A stretch of DNA of 64,000 bases, taken from assembly GCF_900141885.1 (NCBI RefSeq), contig NZ_FQYY01000003.1, forward strand, positions 1 through 64,000, given 5' to 3'. Shown here in pieces: positions 8,527 through 28,914 of this stretch (position 1 is its first letter; every line of letters starts with the position of its first letter). Origin of the DNA: Mesonia phycicola. GTDB lineage: Bacteria > Bacteroidota > Bacteroidia > Flavobacteriales > Flavobacteriaceae. Both the position numbers and the translations under genes were made by a program. The notes below the pieces were generated by a model. That model made no database searches. It was not told the origin of the DNA and was given only the letters and a program-made list of their open reading frames with translations.

Positions 8527-8602
8527 GGTGCCTTAGCTCAGTTGGTAGAGCAAAGGACTGAAAATCCTTGTGTCCCTGGTTCGATTCCTGGAGGCACCAC
8601 CA
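8527..8602 (+). tRNA. tRNA-Phe (GAA)
   Basis: A complete 76-nt cloverleaf. The acceptor stem is GGTGCCT/AGGCACC, the D-loop contains AGCTCAGTTGGTAGAGC, and the anticodon stem AAGGA/TCCTT holds the loop CTGAAAA with anticodon GAA. The T arm contains GGTTCGATTCC. Discriminator A is at 8599 and CCA (8600-8602) is encoded. The last 15 nt (8588-8602) are repeated at 28864-28878, marking the gene as the insertion site of the element to its right. The tRNA remains intact. Confidence 0.97.
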
Positions 8603-8638
8603 TAAAAACCTCAACTTTTAGTTGAGGTTTTTTGTTTT
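8588..8638 (+). repeat. attL: tRNA 3' end plus terminator
   Basis: 37 bp (8588-8624) match 28864-28900 exactly, then one mismatch (A at 8625 against G at 28901), then 13 further identical bases. It contains the last 15 nt of tRNA-Phe with CCA and a hairpin (CCTCAAC...GTTGAGG) followed by a T-run. Confidence 0.93.
8605..8638 (+). terminator. tRNA-Phe terminator
   Basis: The stem AACCTCAAC/GTTGAGGTT with a TTTTA-type loop and a following T-run lies directly after the tRNA. It is inside the att repeat, so it was supplied by the element on integration. Confidence 0.85.
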
Positions 8639-11318: not shown

Positions 11319-11894
11319 TTAATAGTTAATGACCTTTAATTTGATCAGCTTATCTTGATTTATTTGATATAATATTTGTTCTCCAGTTTTAGATGAACCA
11401 TCTGGTTGGGTAATTATTAGTTTCTTTTTTCTATTTATTCTTTGAATACGTAAATAATCCCATTCTTTTTGATGTTCAAATTTTTGAGATTTGAGGTTAA
11501 ATAAATAGTATTTAAAATAACAAGATTGCCCACATTCGATTGGAACAGTAAAATCAATTGCTCCATCCATATTATAATCATAAAAGGTTAAAACTATTTG
11601 CCCTAAACCAATATTATCTTTAAAGTTATAGAGAGTTTGAATTTCGTTATTCATTTTTAAAATATGAAGTTCGGCAATACCTCCATAATAACCAAGGTTT
11701 GAAGAATAACTTAGTTGATTATCCCAAACAGAATTAAAGGAAAAACCCTGAATCTTTTGGATTTCTGATTTGGTAAAAGTGAGGGTCGTTGTAAGCTCGT
11801 TATCCATTACTTTCCAATCTTTACTGGTAAAACTTTGACTCTTTAAGATTGTAGCTGACAGTAATAGTAATATAAAAAGTATTGTCTTTTTCAT
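11319..11894 (-). CDS. Secreted protein, possibly XAC2610-like
   Basis: 191 residues with a clear Sec signal peptide (MKKTILFILLLLSATILKSQ). It has an aspartate-rich calcium-loop-like segment (FYDYNMDGAIDF) and a pair of cysteines (ECGQSCYFKYY), then YLFNLKSQKFEHQKEW. The layout resembles small periplasmic proteins of the XAC2610 type, but I am not certain. The start overlaps the stop of the GGCT-like gene by 4 bp (ATGA), so it is translationally coupled. A secreted protein in a defence-like operon is unusual. Confidence 0.7.
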   Translation of the reverse strand: MKKTILFILLLLSATILKSQSFTSKDWKVMDNELTTTLTFTKSEIQKIQGFSFNSVWDNQLSYSSNLGYYGGIAELHILKMNNEIQTLYNFKDNIGLGQIVLTFYDYNMDGAIDFTVPIECGQSCYFKYYLFNLKSQKFEHQKEWDYLRIQRINRKKKLIITQPDGSSKTGEQILYQINQDKLIKLKVINY

Positions 11895-12457: not shown

Positions 12458-12615
12458 AATAAATTTATTGCTTACATAAATGGTTAAATTTTGCGCAAAA
12501 GTTTGCTCTTAAATCTTTTGTTGAAATCTTCTCATCAAATTCTGCCTCTTCTATTATAGCTTTTTATAATTCTTAATAACAACTTCTAAATCCCTTTGAA
12601 ACTGGTCACGGTAGA

Positions 12616-12813
12616 TTATTTTTCGCCATTTTTACATTCATAAGATAGAATTTTTGAAGAATTTTTCCGTATAAACCAATTATTCTTAGTTTGGGTTTCG
12701 TGAAGCAACGCGCATCGAACATATCTAAAGAACTCCTCTCCAAAGATATTCTGCTCTTTAAAAGGGCTTCGCTTAGAAAAAAACGAAATAAAAATACTGG
12801 AATTCTTTTTCAA
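12616..12813 (-). CDS. Middle fragment of the broken HEPN-like gene
   Basis: 65 codons in the next frame with only a TTG at 12813 as start, which supports its being a fragment. It carries RYVRCALLHETQTKNNW with the R-X4-H motif. The frame ends at TAA at 12616, after which homologous-looking coding continues in another frame. Confidence 0.4.
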   Translation of the reverse strand: MKKNSSIFISFFSKRSPFKEQNIFGEEFFRYVRCALLHETQTKNNWFIRKNSSKILSYECKNGEK

Positions 12814-13127
12814 TCTTTTCCCCCCATTTGTGCATAGCCATTTTCTATTTTTTTATCATACCACTTATTGTTTGACGAATTATACACCCAACCATTAATA
12901 AAGCTTTCAATCGTTTCAATAAGTGAGCATTGTAGATTGATCGCTGCAAAACCCTCCCCGTTATATTTTTCTATTTCGAGAATTGCCTGTATAGGCTCTA
13001 AATATCTTGTACGGATGCGTTCTTCAAAAAAATGGAAGGCATTACCCCAATTTTCGTTCTTTTCGGGTTTTAATATATAAGTTAACTCTTTCCAGTCATT
13101 AACTGTTAATGTTCCTGCTACTCGCAT
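12810..13127 (-). CDS. N-terminal fragment of the broken HEPN-like gene
   Basis: 105 residues from a normal ATG that overlaps the helicase stop by 10 bp. It contains FEERIRTRYLEPIQAI and GEGFAAINLQCSLIETIESF and ends at a TGA just after the G6 tract. It may still be translated but lacks the R-X4-H motif, so I expect no nuclease activity. Confidence 0.55.
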   Translation of the reverse strand: MRVAGTLTVNDWKELTYILKPEKNENWGNAFHFFEERIRTRYLEPIQAILEIEKYNGEGFAAINLQCSLIETIESFINGWVYNSSNNKWYDKKIENGYAQMGGKD

Positions 13128-15793
13128 TTTAACATTTTTTTTATAATCTGTTCAATTAAAGCATCATCCAAATATGGTGAAAAGCAGTGATAAATTTCTT
13201 CACTAGCCTCCCATTTAGAAGCATATTTGTAAATTAGAGGGAGGCTATATTTGAGACCTTTGTTATTACTAAGGTTTTCAAAGCTGTTTTTCCAAATTAA
13301 ATTACGTTCGTATTTGGAAAGTATTTCTTCTGTCCAATTGATTGCAGGGTTACCACTAAGCCCTCCCCAATCCCATTTATCTACATACTTGTCTATCAAC
13401 CTTATAGACCAAGGAAGTGCCGAGTTATAGGATAAGTTTTCCCAGCAAAAATATTGCTCATATCTATTGATAAAACTTTCACTCCAAGGTAAGAAATCCT
13501 TAGTACTTAACCTGTACCAGTTAAACTTATCTTTAAATTCCTCTATAAATTTTTCTGACCAAGGCAGATTGGGATTATCACTTAAGCCTCCAGAAAATCC
13601 ATATTCATCACCTTCCCAATCGAATTTATCGGCATTATCTCTAATAAAGTCAATAGGTAGTTTTAAGTACGTTTTATGAGATAGATAGTAAAGAGATAAA
13701 CTATTTTTCCATCTATAAACCATTTCAAGCGACCAGTTTATAGCGCTATTACTTGATAAAACTTCCCAGTTCCATCTTTCATAAAAATGCTCAATTAGTA
13801 CCTCAGACCACGGTAAAGATTGGTTGCTGCTAAGATTACTCCAGTTAAGTTTTTCTTTAAATTTTTCAATAAGATTAATTGACCAAGGTATAGCTTTATT
13901 AAAGCTTAAACCAGTATAAAATCTATTGTCAAAATTACTAGCCGAACCACTATGCCATTTCCATTTAGTTTTAAAAAAATCAATTAATTCTTCAGACCAA
14001 GGCAAAGATGTATTCGAGCTTAAAAACCCCCAAACCCATTTATCTTCAAATTCTTGAATTATCTCTAAAGACCAAGGGATGCCTTTATTACAGCTTAGAT
14101 CAACCCAGTCCCATTCATCAATAAATTCATTAATTAATTCTATGCTCCAAGGAAGATATGGATTGTTGCTTAAGGTTTTATCTATTTGTGATTTAGGACT
14201 TGACCTCCATACTAAAAAATTCTTATAACGCTTTATAAAGGTTGTTGACCAAACAACATCTTTATAACTGCTAATTACACCCCAATTCAAATAACCTTTA
14301 TTTTTTTCAATATATTCAGTATTAATCTTTATTTCTTTTGTTGGTGGGTTTTCTTTTAACTGATAAGTCTTTGTCGGTTCTAAAAAAATATATTTTTGGA
14401 ATAATTCCTTACTATTAGGGTACCATTTCCAAAGTAAATCAAAAAACAATAGGAAATTTTCCCTTGCAATCTCAATAATAAGCTTCTTATAGTAAATGTC
14501 CACATTTTCTGAATTATGCTCAAAATCTAACACATGTTGACTAACCAATACATCCCAAAGGGCCAAAGGTTGTTTTAAATAAAGACCTGCTAAGCTTTTT
14601 ACACGGCTTAAGGCTACATAGGCTTGGCCGCTGGCAAAAGTACCAGTATGGAAATCGATGATTAATTTTTCAAAGGTTAAACCTTGACTTTTATGGATGG
14701 TTATTGCCCAAGCAAGTTTTAAAGGGTATTGTCTAAACGTTCCTTTAATATCTTGTGTTATTCTTTTTTTCTCTCGATTATAAGTATAAGTTTGATTTTC
14801 CCAACTTACTGGAGTAACTTTTTCTATCCTATTATCCTCCAGTTCTATCTCTATTGCGTTTGCGCTCAAACTGTGAATTTTAGCTATACTGCCATTATAC
14901 CATCTCTTCTCCGGATCGTTTTTTATACATACTACTTGAGCACCAACTTTTAGTTCTAGATTAAAATCTGTTGGAAATTTACTTTGTTCAAAAGTTCCAT
15001 CAATATTAGCTTCATAAAAATAACTTTGTTGATTAAGTTCATTTAATTTTATGTTATTTAAGTGATTAGCTGTATTATTTCTAGTAGTAAGTGTTATCAC
15101 AAACTCTTCTTCAAGAAGGTGTTTATTGTTCTCGATTTTATGATTGAAAGTATTTACCTCTTCAGCCGTTATGGAAGCATCTCTAACTTTCTGCAAAAAG
15201 TCTATAAAGTAATCGTCCTCTTGACGGAATAGCTCGAATAGCTCTACCACTGGCAATTCGATTTTCTTAAATACGTGAGCACTAAAAAAATAGGGAGAAT
15301 CATATAGTTCCGCTATAATTTCCTTATCTCGATTACCTGCAACTACAGGCTCTAATTGAAATAAATCACCAATCATTACCAATTGTTTACCGCCGAAAGG
15401 AAGGGAGAGGTTGTTAGTGTTTTTACGTAAAGAATAATCGATAGCATCTAAAACGTCTGCTCGTACCATCGATATTTCATCAATAATAAGGGTATCCATT
15501 TTATTTAACAGATTACGTTTTGTTGAATTTGGAGGATAAATGGTTATACCCTCATCAGCATGAAGGAGCGGCCTAAAGGGAAAATTAAATAATGAATTAA
15601 TTGTAACTCCATTTGCATTTATTGCAGCAATACCTGTGGGTGCCACTACCAAGAATTCTTTATTACAAGACTGTACAATATGTTTTAAGAAAGAAGATTT
15701 ACCAGTTCCTGCTTTACCTGTTAAAAAAAATGACTGGTTTGTATTTTCTATTAGATTTAGAGCTTTTATAAATTCGTTATTTTTAAATTCCAT
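13118..15793 (-). CDS. Pif1/RecD-like helicase fused to LPWS-type repeats
   Basis: 891 residues. The N-terminal ~430 residues are an SF1B helicase: Walker A GKAGTGKS (26-33), TGIAA motif, Walker B IIDEIS (103-108), and C-terminal motifs TIHKSQGLTF (about 370) and YVALSRVKSL (about 397). From about residue 500 to 870 there are roughly 13 repeats of 25-33 residues. The consensus is LPWS..LI..F.DKW.W..LS.N, for example SLPWSEELIDFFKTKWKW and LPWSEKFIEEFKDKFNW. Such repeats occur in stand-alone bacterial proteins of unknown function; fusion to a helicase is striking. It is the first gene of the operon ending at 10970, with a 10-bp overlap to the HEPN-like gene. A DNA-sensing or processing role is inference. 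Confidence 0.85.
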   Translation of the reverse strand: MEFKNNEFIKALNLIENTNQSFFLTGKAGTGKSSFLKHIVQSCNKEFLVVAPTGIAAINANGVTINSLFNFPFRPLLHADEGITIYPPNSTKRNLLNKMDTLIIDEISMVRADVLDAIDYSLRKNTNNLSLPFGGKQLVMIGDLFQLEPVVAGNRDKEIIAELYDSPYFFSAHVFKKIELPVVELFELFRQEDDYFIDFLQKVRDASITAEEVNTFNHKIENNKHLLEEEFVITLTTRNNTANHLNNIKLNELNQQSYFYEANIDGTFEQSKFPTDFNLELKVGAQVVCIKNDPEKRWYNGSIAKIHSLSANAIEIELEDNRIEKVTPVSWENQTYTYNREKKRITQDIKGTFRQYPLKLAWAITIHKSQGLTFEKLIIDFHTGTFASGQAYVALSRVKSLAGLYLKQPLALWDVLVSQHVLDFEHNSENVDIYYKKLIIEIARENFLLFFDLLWKWYPNSKELFQKYIFLEPTKTYQLKENPPTKEIKINTEYIEKNKGYLNWGVISSYKDVVWSTTFIKRYKNFLVWRSSPKSQIDKTLSNNPYLPWSIELINEFIDEWDWVDLSCNKGIPWSLEIIQEFEDKWVWGFLSSNTSLPWSEELIDFFKTKWKWHSGSASNFDNRFYTGLSFNKAIPWSINLIEKFKEKLNWSNLSSNQSLPWSEVLIEHFYERWNWEVLSSNSAINWSLEMVYRWKNSLSLYYLSHKTYLKLPIDFIRDNADKFDWEGDEYGFSGGLSDNPNLPWSEKFIEEFKDKFNWYRLSTKDFLPWSESFINRYEQYFCWENLSYNSALPWSIRLIDKYVDKWDWGGLSGNPAINWTEEILSKYERNLIWKNSFENLSNNKGLKYSLPLIYKYASKWEASEEIYHCFSPYLDDALIEQIIKKMLKCE

Positions 15794-18884: not shown

Positions 18885-19796
18885 TTATTTCCAAAGTGGT
18901 TCTTCTTGCCAATGTGGTTTCATACCCAAAGCTCCTGGGTCCACATTGGGGTATTTATTAAAAAGTTCATTTAGGCGTATTGAAAAATCATTATCTGGTT
19001 TAATAGTATTTACTAAATATCTCATTAAACACATATGGATGTATAAGCGCTGAAACTCGTGTTGCTTAGGTACATTTTCTTTTTCTAAAATCCAAGGGTT
19101 TGGTGGTTTGGGTAACAGTTTAACCGTACCCGGTAAATTTCTATTCCATAGTCTAGAATGATGTGCGCAAAAATTTCTTATTACCGCAATTGATTGTAAC
19201 CAACTTGGTAAATACGTATGGTTTACTGCTCCAAACTCTTCTGCTATAATATCTTTAGCTTTTAAAGTGTGCTTTAGATTACCATATAATTTTGACAAAG
19301 CACCAAAACTGGTATGTTCTAAAGATTTCCAAGCAGGAGGAAAACGTTTATCGTCTTTATGTTTTTTAAAATGATTTTTTAAAGTTATATCTTTAGAACG
19401 TTCCACCTCTTCTTGCAGATTAGCTAATGTCTTGACTAAAGCTCTACTATCATTAAACAATTCAAAGTTTTGAAACCACCAAGGATCAACCTCGTGCGAT
19501 AAATGGTAGATAAGTTTAGTACGTAAGCTGATTTCTATTTTTTCAATGACATCAAAAAGAAGTAAACGTAATTCTGCATCAAAATTATAAAGTGCAATTA
19601 CATCACTAAACCTACTGTTAGGTTTGAAGATATGATTTTCTTTATCTGCTTGCATTACATACCAATATTCCCCTAAACGATAGTAACTTATATTTGCTAA
19701 ATAGCGTTCTGCGAGTTTAGAATTTGGAATATACAAACCTCGCTCTTGAAGCTGTTTAACTTGCTCTGTAAGTGTAAATGCTTTTTTGCTAAACAT
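18885..19796 (-). CDS. Abi_2 family (AbiD/AbiF-like) HEPN protein
   Basis: 303 residues. The N-terminus (FTLTEQVKQLQERGLYI..ERYLANISYYRLGEYW) and IEKIEISLRTKLIYHLS are typical of Abi_2. The C-terminal motif VIRNFCAHHSRLWNR carries R-X4-H, the HEPN ribonuclease active site. Related AbiD/F proteins of lactococcal plasmids block phage growth. The gene lies between hsdS and hsdR, 3 bp from hsdR. A 171-bp gap upstream holds a TAnnTTTG box and a strong hairpin, so it may have its own promoter and RNA control. Confidence 0.9.
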   Translation of the reverse strand: MFSKKAFTLTEQVKQLQERGLYIPNSKLAERYLANISYYRLGEYWYVMQADKENHIFKPNSRFSDVIALYNFDAELRLLLFDVIEKIEISLRTKLIYHLSHEVDPWWFQNFELFNDSRALVKTLANLQEEVERSKDITLKNHFKKHKDDKRFPPAWKSLEHTSFGALSKLYGNLKHTLKAKDIIAEEFGAVNHTYLPSWLQSIAVIRNFCAHHSRLWNRNLPGTVKLLPKPPNPWILEKENVPKQHEFQRLYIHMCLMRYLVNTIKPDNDFSIRLNELFNKYPNVDPGALGMKPHWQEEPLWK

Positions 19797-19967: not shown

Positions 19968-21161
19968 TTAAACAAACATCTGTTGCAACAAGCCTTTTTT
20001 ATACCCCTTTGTCTGTTCAATTTTTGTATTGACTAATTCTATATTTTTATCTATGGCTGATAAGAAATTAGCGATTTTGATTTGTTCTTTTAGTGAAGGA
20101 ATAAGTTTTTTGAATTTTATAAATTCATGGTAATGCACTCTTTTTTTCTCTTCCAGAGTTCCAGTAGCCATTTTATTATAATACTGAATCATATTATAAG
20201 AAGTTAAGTAATAATCAAAGAAATTGGCGCTTCCCTTTTCATTACAGTAGAAAATATTATAATACTTTGATACGTTTATCATAATATCTCCTTTAAACCT
20301 CTTTAAAGCTCCAAATCTTAAATTCATTGGATTAAATGCAAAATCATTTTTATACATAACTTTATAAGCATCTTTTGTATCACCTACTAAAAACTCTCGT
20401 TCGTATCTTTTACTTTTTGGAATAACACCATCCTCAATAGTTAAACTGTATAGAGGATAGTTTTCTAATCCCTTTTCTTTTCTTTCTACAAAATAATATC
20501 CTAGCTTCTTTTCTTCCCACTCCGGAAACGCTTTACCATCATCATCTTTGAACCGTATTTCTTGTTTAAAGATTTTTTGGGTAATGCCTTTTTTGTATTG
20601 CTCTAGCAGTTCTTTTTTCTTTTCTAAGTTTTGAATACGATTATCTACCGCTGAAAGGAAATCGGCTATTTTTTGTTGTTCGGGAAGGGGTGGAAAATTT
20701 ACACTTATTTTTTTCACAATTTTAGCTGATAAATTTCCTTGACCTCCTTGTAAATAGGTATTTACGATTGATGTTTTTTTATAGGATAACCTCTGATATA
20801 AGAAATTTTTATTTTCTTCTGTTCTAATACAAAGAATGGCTTGATTTATAGCTCCGGCAATCTTAGAAATTGAAACATCACCGCTATTAGCACCGTATAA
20901 TGCATATAATATATCGCCTTCTTCTACTAATTTGGCTGAAGAGCTTTTTAAAGCATCTTCATTGATATATTTATCAACTTTAGAATCGAAAATATTACCA
21001 GAACCTATAAAAGGTATACTACCAGTATAAAAATTTTTATTAGAACTTGTTGGTGTACCACCAGAAAAAAACTTACAGATTTTTTCTAATTTAATTTTTT
21101 CCCATTCTCCTTCAAACTCCGAAAACCTTAATTTAGGTACAAGTTGTTTTTCTTTCTGCAT
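19968..21161 (-). CDS. hsdS: Type I restriction-modification specificity subunit S
   Basis: 397 residues with two target-recognition domains and two conserved spacer helices. TRD1 begins LRFSEFEGEWEKIKLEKI; the central conserved region is PPLPEQQKIADFLSAVDNRI. TRD2 starts near PEWEEKKLGYYFVERKEKG and ends with SLKEQIKIANFLSAIDKNI and a helical tail. It determines the DNA target of both methylation and cleavage. It lies 1 bp after hsdM. Both TRDs look complete. Confidence 0.95.
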   Translation of the reverse strand: MQKEKQLVPKLRFSEFEGEWEKIKLEKICKFFSGGTPTSSNKNFYTGSIPFIGSGNIFDSKVDKYINEDALKSSSAKLVEEGDILYALYGANSGDVSISKIAGAINQAILCIRTEENKNFLYQRLSYKKTSIVNTYLQGGQGNLSAKIVKKISVNFPPLPEQQKIADFLSAVDNRIQNLEKKKELLEQYKKGITQKIFKQEIRFKDDDGKAFPEWEEKKLGYYFVERKEKGLENYPLYSLTIEDGVIPKSKRYEREFLVGDTKDAYKVMYKNDFAFNPMNLRFGALKRFKGDIMINVSKYYNIFYCNEKGSANFFDYYLTSYNMIQYYNKMATGTLEEKKRVHYHEFIKFKKLIPSLKEQIKIANFLSAIDKNIELVNTKIEQTKGYKKGLLQQMFV

Positions 21162-21162
21162 C

Positions 21163-22782
21163 TTAAAACGGGGTTTTGATGTTTAACTCTTGGCAAAAAG
21201 AAGTGATGGTTGCTTTGTTATCTTGCAATTCGCTGTTTAAACTTTCAATTTCATTGGCTACCGCATTTATATCTACCGGCTCTTCTTCTTCAAAAGTATC
21301 TACATAACGCGGTATATTTAAATTATAGTCGTTTTCAGCTACTTCATCTAAACTCGCTACATAACTATATTTATCTTCGGTTTTGCGTTCTCGATATGTA
21401 GTAACTATTTTATCAATGTTTTCTGGCGTTAAAACATTTTGCGTTTTTACTTTATCATAATGTTCACTAGCATCGATAAATAAAATATCATCAGGATTTT
21501 CTCGACATTTTTTAAACACCATAATACAAGTAGGAATACTTGTCCCGTAAAAGATATTAGCCGGTAAACCGATAACGGCATCTAAAAAGTTTTTTTCTTT
21601 AATAAGGTATTCTCTAATATAACCTTCTGCGCTTCCTCTAAATAAAGCGCCGTGTGGTAATACTAAAGCCATTGTGCCATTTTCTGCTAGTTGATGAACC
21701 ATATGTTGTACAAAGGCGTAATCTGCTTTGCTTTTAGGTGCGAGCTTCCCGTATTGGCTAAAACGGTCGTCACTCATAAAAAGCTGATTAGCACTCCACT
21801 TTGCTGAAAATGGAGGGTTTGCTACAATTGCCTCAAAACGTTCATCGATATGCTGCGGATATTCTAAGGTATCTTCTTGCTTAATATCGAATTTACGATA
21901 ATGCACCCCGTGCAAAATCATATTCATACGTGCTAAGTTGTAAGTGGTTCTATTAAGTTCTTGCCCATAAAAATCATTTACTTCTTTTACCTCTTTGGCT
22001 ACTCGTAACAATAAAGAACCACTACCACAAGTAGGATCGTATACCGATTTTAATTTGGTTTTACCTGTAGTTACTAATTTTGCCAACACAATACTTACTT
22101 CTTGTGGGGTATAAAATTCACCCGCTTTTTTACCGGCACCACTAGCAAACTTTCCAATCAAATATTCATAAGCATCGCCTAAAACATCGAGTTCTGTTTG
22201 TTCTAATTTAAAGTCAATTTTATTTAAGTGCCCTAAAACTTTAGCTATAATCTCATTACGAGCAGATGGGTTTTTACCTAGCTTAGTTGAGTTTAAATCT
22301 AAATCTTCAAAAAGATTATCAAAATCTTCCTCACTTTCTGTACCCATTGTAGAGTTTTGCACATTGTTGAGAATGGTTTGCAAATCTTCTAAAATAAAGT
22401 TACTCTGTGTTTGGTAATCTTCATCGGGATCTGCTGCTTGTGCTACTTCTTCTAAACTAACCTCCTTATGATTTCCTCTTTTAGCTACCGCACTAAATAA
22501 TTCTGAAGGTTTTAGAAAATAACCTAATTTAATTAGCGCTTCTTCTTTAATGGCTTCTAAGTATGCTTTCCCATTTTCGGTTTCTTCTTCAATATCTGTA
22601 TAGCTAATGCCATCTGGTTTTAAAATGGTGTCTGCATAGATTTCCATTTTTTCAGAAAGGTATTTATAGAAAATAAAGCCTAAAATATAGTCTCTAAATT
22701 CATCGGCATTCATTTTACCTCTTAAGGTGTTGGCTATATTCCAGAGTTGCTGCTCTAATTGTTTTTTATGGTCTTCGGACAT
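21163..22782 (-). CDS. hsdM: Type I restriction-modification methylase subunit M
   Basis: 539 residues. The N-terminal helical HsdM domain is LWNIANTLRGKMNADEFRDY. The adenine methylase has SAM motif I DPTCGSGSLLL (about 245) and catalytic motif IV NPPF in IVANPPFSAKW (about 322), so it makes N6-methyladenine. It is first in the operon hsdM-hsdS-abi-hsdR. An imperfect palindrome (22805-22821) lies 22 bp ahead of the start. Confidence 0.96.
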   Translation of the reverse strand: MSEDHKKQLEQQLWNIANTLRGKMNADEFRDYILGFIFYKYLSEKMEIYADTILKPDGISYTDIEEETENGKAYLEAIKEEALIKLGYFLKPSELFSAVAKRGNHKEVSLEEVAQAADPDEDYQTQSNFILEDLQTILNNVQNSTMGTESEEDFDNLFEDLDLNSTKLGKNPSARNEIIAKVLGHLNKIDFKLEQTELDVLGDAYEYLIGKFASGAGKKAGEFYTPQEVSIVLAKLVTTGKTKLKSVYDPTCGSGSLLLRVAKEVKEVNDFYGQELNRTTYNLARMNMILHGVHYRKFDIKQEDTLEYPQHIDERFEAIVANPPFSAKWSANQLFMSDDRFSQYGKLAPKSKADYAFVQHMVHQLAENGTMALVLPHGALFRGSAEGYIREYLIKEKNFLDAVIGLPANIFYGTSIPTCIMVFKKCRENPDDILFIDASEHYDKVKTQNVLTPENIDKIVTTYRERKTEDKYSYVASLDEVAENDYNLNIPRYVDTFEEEEPVDINAVANEIESLNSELQDNKATITSFCQELNIKTPF

Positions 22783-27366: not shown

Positions 27367-28680
27367 TTAAATATTGAAAAAGCCATTTTGAGCTATATGA
27401 GAGGCTCTTTCTTCATCTTTGATTCTAATATACTTATAAAATTCTTTTTCTGTGGTATGACCGGTAAAAAGCATTATATCATATACGTTCATTCCTGCTT
27501 TATATTTATTGGTAGCAAAACTACGTCTTGCCGTATGAGATTTGATTAAATTATAACGATTCTCTTTTATAGAATGAAATTTACCGCCTTTAGTATATTC
27601 TACTTTAATTTCTCTATTTAAAGAATCTAATTCTAACATCTGGCCAATTTGCTTAATATAATCGTTCAAATCTTTATCCGGTATTCTTTTAGGTGGTTTG
27701 CCTTCATGGCGCGAGTTCATAATATGCCACATTTCTTTAGTAATTGGACACAAGACTTTACGACCTCTTTTTCTGTTTTTCTTTTGAATTATTTTAAAAT
27801 AACTAACTCCGTTTAAAACCTCTATTTCATCTTCTTTAAAACTATTATAATCGCTAACCCTCTGCCCTGTATAACAACCCATTAAGAATATATCGCGAGC
27901 GTGTGAAAGTTTTGGGTACTTAGTTAAGTCTTTATCGTAGAAGGCTTGTATTTCTTCTTCTGTAAGGTAAATTTCTGTTGTTATTTCTTTTACTGCCTTG
28001 AAAGCTTTACTTCTAAAGCGTTGGTTTTGTGAATAACCTTCGCTTACTGCATAATTAAGAAATGTCTTTATTGTTTTTATATGCTTTCCAATGGTGTTTA
28101 GACTATACTCCTTTGCTTCCATATATTTCTGAAACTTCGCATAGAAAGTCATATTAAAACTATCGAAAGTTAAAACTGTACGATAATATTTCTCATAGCC
28201 TAAAAGGTGTTTTTTAGCTTGTTTATAAGCCCTCAATGTTACATTTGCTATTCTTCCTTCTTTTTCGTTTAAAAATTGGTCTACGACTTCAAAAAAGGCT
28301 AAATACTGAACATTAGGATCTTCATTTACTTTCCCTGTAATTATATCTAACTGATGCTTTAATTCTTTAGGTGTGATATGCGGGTTTTCTGCAAACACTT
28401 TATTAAAGCGTTCGGTAAATTCATCTTCTAATTTTCTGATTTCTGAATTAACCTCATCTTTATTTTTGATGTTAGCTTTGTTCTTAACTCTTCCCTTATC
28501 GAATATCCAATCATTATAGCAAGATTTGTAGCCGGTAGAATACTTTAAACGTTTACCCCTCCCATAAGAGAAAAAAAGATAAATTAAATATTGTTTAGAT
28601 TTTTCGGCTTCTAATTGATGTAACGGTTTATTAAATCCAAAGCGAATTGTACCTTTGGACCTTTCTATCTGGCTGCTCAT
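27367..28680 (-). CDS. Tyrosine recombinase (integrase) of the island
   Basis: 437 residues. It has an N-terminal arm-binding region, a SAM-like core-binding domain (about 115-215) and a C-terminal catalytic domain. The catalytic set is visible: first Arg in GCYTGQRVSDY, HxxR in HTARRSFATN, the second His in FTGHTTEKEF, and the Tyr nucleophile in FYKYIR near the end. It recombines the attachment site at the tRNA-Phe 3' end. It sits 183 bp from the right direct repeat and is read inward. It appears intact. Confidence 0.95.
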   Translation of the reverse strand: MSSQIERSKGTIRFGFNKPLHQLEAEKSKQYLIYLFFSYGRGKRLKYSTGYKSCYNDWIFDKGRVKNKANIKNKDEVNSEIRKLEDEFTERFNKVFAENPHITPKELKHQLDIITGKVNEDPNVQYLAFFEVVDQFLNEKEGRIANVTLRAYKQAKKHLLGYEKYYRTVLTFDSFNMTFYAKFQKYMEAKEYSLNTIGKHIKTIKTFLNYAVSEGYSQNQRFRSKAFKAVKEITTEIYLTEEEIQAFYDKDLTKYPKLSHARDIFLMGCYTGQRVSDYNSFKEDEIEVLNGVSYFKIIQKKNRKRGRKVLCPITKEMWHIMNSRHEGKPPKRIPDKDLNDYIKQIGQMLELDSLNREIKVEYTKGGKFHSIKENRYNLIKSHTARRSFATNKYKAGMNVYDIMLFTGHTTEKEFYKYIRIKDEERASHIAQNGFFNI

Positions 28681-28863: not shown

Positions 28864-28914
28864 CTGGAGGCACCACCATAAAAACCTCAACTTTTAGTTG
28901 GGGTTTTTTGTTTT
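28864..28914 (+). repeat. attR
   Basis: Copy of the left repeat: 37 identical bp, G at 28901 instead of A, then 13 identical bp. It holds the last 15 nt of the tRNA and the terminator hairpin. The change forms a G-T wobble, so the hairpin still folds. Confidence 0.93.

Follow-up and report, generated by a model that had tools for sequence, protein, structure and literature searches.

The first 64,000 nucleotides of contig NZ_FQYY01000003.1 from the flavobacterium Mesonia phycicola (assembly GCF_900141885.1), referred to here as the window, encode an intact protein that joins a Pif1-type helicase to a long C-terminal array of tryptophan (LPWS) repeats. The stop of this gene is overlapped by a broken HEPN-like gene, and both genes lie on an integrative island. 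The parts of the two genes are listed below, with open reading frames abbreviated as ORFs and other loci identified by their L and G numbers.

13118-15793, minus strand: Pif1-type helicase with C-terminal tryptophan (LPWS) repeat domain; intact ORF, 891 aa
14519-15793, minus strand: Pif1 helicase part, residues about 1-425, from Pfam PIF1, ATPase motifs and identity to Bacteroides Pif1
13121-14413, minus strand: LPWS/tryptophan-repeat solenoid, residues about 461-891; 13 unit matches, period 25 aa
12810-13127, minus strand: HEPN-like gene, N-terminal half (105-aa ORF); 10-nt overlap with the helicase stop
12616-12813, minus strand: HEPN-like gene, central part (65-aa ORF, other frame); R-X4-H at 12717-12700
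12465-12615, minus strand: HEPN-like gene, C-terminal remains with further frame changes, from alignment with Gelidibacter (L059)

A helicase-repeat gene overlapped by a broken HEPN-like gene

The Pif1-like helicase named in a first-pass annotation of the sequence is borne out by a Pfam PIF1 match that spans residues 14-212 and scores 108.1 bits, where the cut-off is 25.9, and by SF1 ATPase motifs at residues 26 (Walker A), 102 (Walker B) and 142 (motif III), followed by the further helicase motifs FRQ (189), TIHKSQG (365) and VALSR (393). The PIF1 domain and ATPase motifs are shared with the solved Bacteroides Pif1 (5ftc/5fhe), to which the helicase is about 40% identical in the Foldseek list, while the added C-terminal tryptophan-repeat solenoid distinguishes the window protein from it. 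Among plasmid sequences, the top relatives of the helicase region bear TPR or HRDC protein annotations.

The periodicity of the C-terminal domain is evident from the identity at lag 25 across residues 488-891, which holds at 92 of 379 positions as compared with 26.4 +/- 4.8 (maximum 43) in 2000 shuffles. A 25-aa unit model recovers 13 units, eight at E < 1e-7 and five weak, such that the initial count of about 13 LPWS repeats holds with the degenerate units included and falls to eight when strong units alone are counted. No match covered the repeats in a Pfam scan of the 891-aa protein, which likewise returned no DarT domain; PADLOC-DB 2.0.0 matched the protein solely inside the helicase part, and the repeat profile searched against PDB sequences returned a single lectin at chance level (E 0.47). 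An AlphaFold2 model from a four-row alignment (mean pLDDT 58.5, helicase region poorly modelled) gives residues 541-890 block pLDDT values of 70-92 and renders them as short helices, mostly two per repeat. When the full-length model was compared with PDB structures, the match list was taken up by the Pif1 2B region. Among predicted structures, Foldseek matched the repeat-protein model to Gp563 of phage G (E 9.0e-12, TM 0.74 by target), to the entomopoxvirus "tryptophan repeat gene family" protein W6JIY9 (E 6.9e-7, with a root-mean-square deviation of 18.1 over a long alignment) and to pithovirus and orpheovirus proteins. The entomopoxvirus family is tentatively likened to the window repeat through W-rich repeats and predicted structure only, and the window repeat differs from it in being bacterial and in being fused to, or encoded near, nucleic-acid enzymes. 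Excerpts of three papers (PMC7728225, PMC6540820, PMC6669658) mention the family in no setting other than viruses and insect sequences of viral origin. Titles and the starts of abstracts, few of them from subscription journals, yielded no link of the repeat to bacterial defence and no description of a Pif1-HEPN pair; no listed paper joins "tryptophan repeat" with "anti-phage", and the listed matches to "LPWS" were unrelated abbreviations.

The HEPN-like gene had been described as an ORF that overlaps the helicase gene and contains an R-X4-H motif. The overlap of 10 nt is present, but the motif (RCALLH, 12717-12700) lies in the separate frame of the 65-aa ORF and not in the overlapping 105-aa ORF. 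A profile built without the window aligns 12867-13112 with its positions 7-90 and 12631-12810 with positions 95-156, and because both halves match a single profile they are regarded as one broken gene. The R and H of the motif are invariant in all seven relatives outside the window. The residue following R is Cys in all seven profile rows as well as in L113 and L116, a departure from the polar N, D or H that an excerpt of PMC3710099 gives as typical, though not strict, for HEPN proteins; it is His in the distant relative L114. The protein model is helical, and the best two structural matches among those listed are HEPN toxins. The R-X4-H motif is held in common with the HEPN superfamily, including the HEPN-MNT toxins and RnlA, and the helical model may reflect a HEPN fold; points of difference are the Cys after R in the seven relatives and a repeat protein instead of MNT as partner. 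Pfam, NCBIfam and PADLOC scans of HEPN-like members gave no match among the members scanned. In PADLOC-DB 2.0.0 (2023) the window pieces and two intact relatives hit no family, no system model fits the helicase-HEPN pair, and the HEPN profile had no match among PDB sequences.

In both Gelidibacter algens (L059, 10525-11201) and the window (12465-13127), the HEPN-like gene shifts frame within one shared low-complexity stretch. Decay common to the two copies, slippage or errors of sequencing in homopolymer runs may account for the frame changes. Programmed frameshifting was also considered, and decay was preferred as the simpler explanation because the window copy bears further frame changes downstream.

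HEPN-like genes and the tryptophan repeat across genomes

The repeat occurs in 7 of 299 sampled genomes of the window's family and 7 of 296 of its order; for the HEPN-like gene the counts are 3 of 395 genomes at the level of the phylum and 3 of 345 at that of the class (own genome included throughout). A repeat profile run over the genomes of 84,980 species gave 41 loci, the titles of which point mainly to Bacteroidota and Proteobacteria. Further searches brought the set examined to 52 loci (803 ORFs), of which 49 distinct loci were kept after dropping L020 (same gene as L034), one of L046 and L050 (identical repeat gene) and L064 (no repeat ORF passing the threshold). In 7 of the 52 a contig end truncates the repeat gene, and partners may therefore be missed. 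L046 and L050 are labelled Proteobacteria and Nanoarchaeota and encode an identical repeat protein; one of these metagenome-assembled genomes is probably mis-binned.

A profile search of the 803 ORFs places a HEPN-like gene beside the repeat in five of the 49 distinct loci. Its ORF starts within 4 nt of the repeat-gene stop, or overlaps it, in L042, L049, L059 and the window, and lies 402 nt upstream of the repeat gene in L045. These five loci amount to four separate cases because the window and L059 share one transferred block. The repeat protein of L045 has a DEDDh exonuclease as its head. In L042 and L049 a Pif1 head was looked for and not found, the repeat gene of L049 being truncated at the contig end. 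A Pif1 head is present by motif in four of the 49 loci (window, L034, L038, L059), and only two of these, the window and L059, contain the HEPN gene. The outcome named at first as refuting the proposal, that homologues of the helicase never neighbour the HEPN-like gene, did not arise, but the partner is the repeat protein and not the helicase; a pairing of Pif1 with HEPN was rejected because HEPN accompanies the repeat.

We assessed the history of the block by comparing the window with L059, in which the order Pif1-repeat, HEPN, WGSLIW (a small protein described below), XAC2610-like and 114-aa gene is common to both. Synonymous divergence (dS) is 1.76, near saturation, for the Pif1 part, 0.48 for the repeats and 0.50 for each HEPN piece, and 1.45 for the WGSLIW gene, with the next two genes saturated. 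The Pif1 part differs at 65 of 109 four-fold sites and the repeat part at 16 of 91 (p 1.5e-9). Nucleotide identity, taken 150 columns at a time, stays at 0.68-0.76 across most of Pif1, climbs to 0.76-0.95 between roughly the junction of helicase and repeats and the end of HEPN, and drops to 0.50-0.63 in the steps directly after the HEPN stop. Taken together, dS, four-fold sites and identity steps indicate that the repeats and the HEPN-like gene share a more recent history than does either the helicase or the gene that follows HEPN, as if they had moved together in one block without the helicase part. From the sequence comparison, such joint transfer would be the strongest sign that repeats and HEPN belong together. 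The dN/dS values against Gelidibacter are 0.10 and 0.21 for the helicase-repeat gene and 0.19 and 0.34 for the HEPN pieces.

HEPN-like genes also occur in defence-like loci without the repeat, with hsdR in L114, PglZ and a SNF2-type helicase in L116 and an AAA_13 ATPase in L113; annotations in HEPN loci include 7-cyano-7-deazaguanine synthase (L076, L079) and a Lit-type protein (L079). Near the PglZ and SNF2-type helicase genes, one protein (G319; L116 681-1943) carries HEPN-like and AIG2-like domains in a single chain (AIG2_2 at E 1.3e-5 and 26.0 bits, slightly under the cut-off of 27). A HEPN match was present in 13 plasmid records, six of which were examined.

Other partners of the repeat and the surrounding island

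The repeat is joined to a range of enzymes. A DEDDh exonuclease is fused to it in L021 and L045 and encoded separately, at 58 and 134 nt, in L071 and L072. DarT is fused to the repeats in four proteins (L024, L025, L051, L069), in three of which the repeat protein is 1565-1948 aa long with DarT near its C-terminus (L024 1001-11464, L025 980-9879, L069 12842-20364). A macro-domain gene adjoins these three (scanned as DarG in L024, by clustering in L025 and L069), and a large AAA_11/AAA_12 helicase-type protein lies upstream (scanned in L024, by clustering in the others). The DarT domain in four repeat proteins and the macro-domain neighbour in three recall DarT-DarG, from which these proteins differ in the long repeat part that precedes DarT. 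A PLD-type protein is encoded 3-603 nt upstream of the repeat gene in seven loci (L035, L036, L040, L044, L048, L050, L063) and is fused to the repeats in L043, the calls resting on scans except in L036 and L044, where they rest on motif and clustering. The DnaJ segment of these proteins exceeds the Pfam cut-off only in L050 and falls below it in the other five scanned. The PLD protein with its DnaJ-like segment, next to the repeat gene, forms a second recurring two-gene arrangement.

Other contexts include a protein kinase match (L054), a Salinibacter repeat protein annotated with ankyrin repeats and seven repeat ORFs in succession in the Listeria jumbo phage LPJP1 (L028 3722-9712), and stand-alone repeat proteins are numerous among the loci examined. 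A PADLOC scan of four repeat proteins (window, L020, L021, L037) gave a match within the repeats only in L037, to PbeB (E 3.6e-5); no single stretch passes alone, and the match looks like chance.

The island and the genes flanking the pair comprise the following features.

8588-8638, unstranded: 51-nt direct repeat, island end; begins in the 3' end of tRNA-Phe (8527-8602)
11319-11894, minus strand: 191-aa protein; relatives near repeat genes in L021, L034 and L059
11891-12457, minus strand: "WGSLIW" protein, 188 aa; weak ChaC/GGCT-like match; relatives in L036, L049 and L059
16029-18881, minus strand: type I restriction subunit R (hsdR)
18885-19796, minus strand: Abi_2/AbiD-type protein in the restriction-modification gene row, between hsdR and hsdS
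19968-21161, minus strand: type I specificity subunit (hsdS); Methylase_S 4.1e-29
21163-22782, minus strand: type I methylase (hsdM); N6_Mtase 4.4e-112, HsdM_N
27367-28680, minus strand: phage-type integrase, 437 aa; Phage_int_SAM_5, Phage_integrase
28864-28914, unstranded: second direct-repeat copy, other island end; 98% identity

The restriction-carrying island of the first-pass annotation is confirmed by these features as a 20.3-kb integrative element at tRNA-Phe, on which the restriction-modification genes, the Abi_2 protein (which we take to be of a HEPN-type family) and the integrase accompany the helicase gene, the HEPN gene and small genes. The WGSLIW protein matches Pfam ChaC under the cut-off (E 0.0082, 16.6 bits against 21), and its relatives occur near repeat genes. 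The 191-aa protein is XAC2610-like, its relative in L020 (the L034 locus) matching NF047539 (XAC2610-related). Such a gene lies near the repeat gene in four loci (L021 5579-6196, L034 11013-11600, L059 11783-12352 and the window), accompanied in L021, L059 and the window by a gene of 113-114 aa.

Related DUF6266-type and XAC2610-like genes recur near repeat genes in G047, where a Pif1-repeat protein is encoded beside pAgo, and in G274, where a DEDDh-repeat protein is encoded beside DrmA/DrmB. Repeat genes therefore adjoin components of DISARM (DrmA/B, DrmC) and pAgo systems, and the PLD-DnaJ-like partner in L040 has a weak DrmC match (E 1.1e-7), whereas the window is without any of their genes. 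We know of no published DISARM or pAgo system to which tryptophan repeats belong.

Interpretation of the locus

The domain anatomy, the recurrent fusions and adjacencies, the linkage of HEPN-like genes to the repeat and the joint transfer of repeats and HEPN-like gene led us to view the window as a decayed copy of a two-part conflict module, repeat solenoid plus HEPN, carried on an integrative island, a reading that we hold as evenly poised. The module would be of an undescribed type, and an anti-phage role, a triggering step and an RNase activity are proposed for it. Its first part would be the solenoid, a swappable domain for recognition or scaffolding that is attached to, or encoded close to, a nucleic-acid enzyme; across bacteria this enzyme may be a Pif1 helicase, a DEDDh exonuclease, a PLD-DnaJ-like protein or DarT; its second part, in some lineages including that of the window, would be a HEPN-type RNase encoded alongside. 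The solenoid might bind an invader- or stress-derived trigger or keep the effector silent, and the head enzyme, Pif1 in the window, would act on DNA, steps proposed because of anatomy and association. Upon activation the HEPN protein would cut RNA and arrest the cell, a step modelled on the RNase chemistry of HEPN proteins (excerpt of PMC3710099). DNA sensing by the helicase with HEPN as RNase effector, as initially suggested, remains an inference, and the WGSLIW protein may be a regulator.

Several observations limit this reading. The HEPN copy in the window is broken, so the pair is not intact here and at most the helicase-repeat part can still work. In the reverse direction, the repeat was found in none of 11 distinct loci obtained by searching with HEPN (14 stretches, 3-14 kb long and in part overlapping; one locus, G496, is a doubtful relative). 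Finally, a per-family tally of PADLOC defence matches in the same loci did not discriminate genes near the repeat (within 3.5 kb; 90 drawn of 158 eligible) from those far from it (6.5 kb or more; 50 of 50), defence-type matches occurring in both and the far set lying partly inside islands itself.

The tally speaks for a rival reading, in which the repeats serve generally as an adaptor for binding proteins, are not specially tied to defence and have the neighbours they do through general accessory-gene clustering. The many stand-alone repeat proteins, the repeats of jumbo phage LPJP1, the resemblance to folds predicted for proteins of phage G and giant viruses and the F-box on one entomopoxvirus tryptophan-repeat protein (excerpt of PMC7728225) are consistent with such an adaptor, which we nonetheless consider rather unlikely, since the recurring partners (DarT, PLD, DEDDh, HEPN) are ones that cleave or modify nucleic acids. 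Less probable still is that the helicase-repeat protein serves the mobile element in replication, excision or transfer, with restriction-modification and HEPN genes as separate cargo. Pif1 is a replication-type helicase, the gene sits on the tRNA-Phe element, and the DUF6266-type and XAC2610-like genes near the repeat genes of G047 and G274 fit this role. However, G274 has a DEDDh-repeat protein in place of Pif1, the Pif1 head is confined to four of the 49 repeat loci, and the repeat and HEPN gene appear to have moved jointly without the helicase part.

The adjacency of HEPN and WGSLIW raises the quite improbable alternative that these form a toxin-antitoxin pair, WGSLIW being GGCT/AIG2-like and the repeat gene a bystander. 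In the window, L059 and L049 a WGSLIW gene comes directly behind HEPN, and the G319 protein unites HEPN-like and AIG2-like domains, but between the window and L059 WGSLIW (dS 1.45) did not travel with HEPN (0.50). Moreover, L036 has WGSLIW near the repeat with no HEPN match, and L042 has HEPN with no WGSLIW match. That the locus is merely decaying, its function lost, agrees with the several breaks in the HEPN gene and is very improbable in light of the intact 891-aa helicase-repeat ORF and its dN/dS of 0.10 and 0.21 against Gelidibacter.

Extending the two-part conflict module beyond the window, we tentatively suggest that the solenoid could serve as common sensor or scaffold to many bacterial conflict systems, as yet undescribed, with swappable effectors (Pif1, DEDDh, PLD-DnaJ-like, DarT, HEPN), the repeat and HEPN gene acting as a specificity cassette that moves between helicase backbones and the similar repeats of viruses, from jumbo phages to entomopoxviruses, perhaps being decoys or borrowed adaptors. 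The discovery of defence genes relies on known domains, and a repeat without a Pfam match in the scanned proteins would provide a handle. Because it recurs beside HEPN and on proteins of the DarT, DEDDh, PLD and Pif1 types, it could lead to several systems together, and the joint transfer suggests that the repeat domain and the HEPN gene are matched. If the fold is indeed common to the viral tryptophan-repeat proteins, it would offer a first hypothesis for what those viral proteins do.

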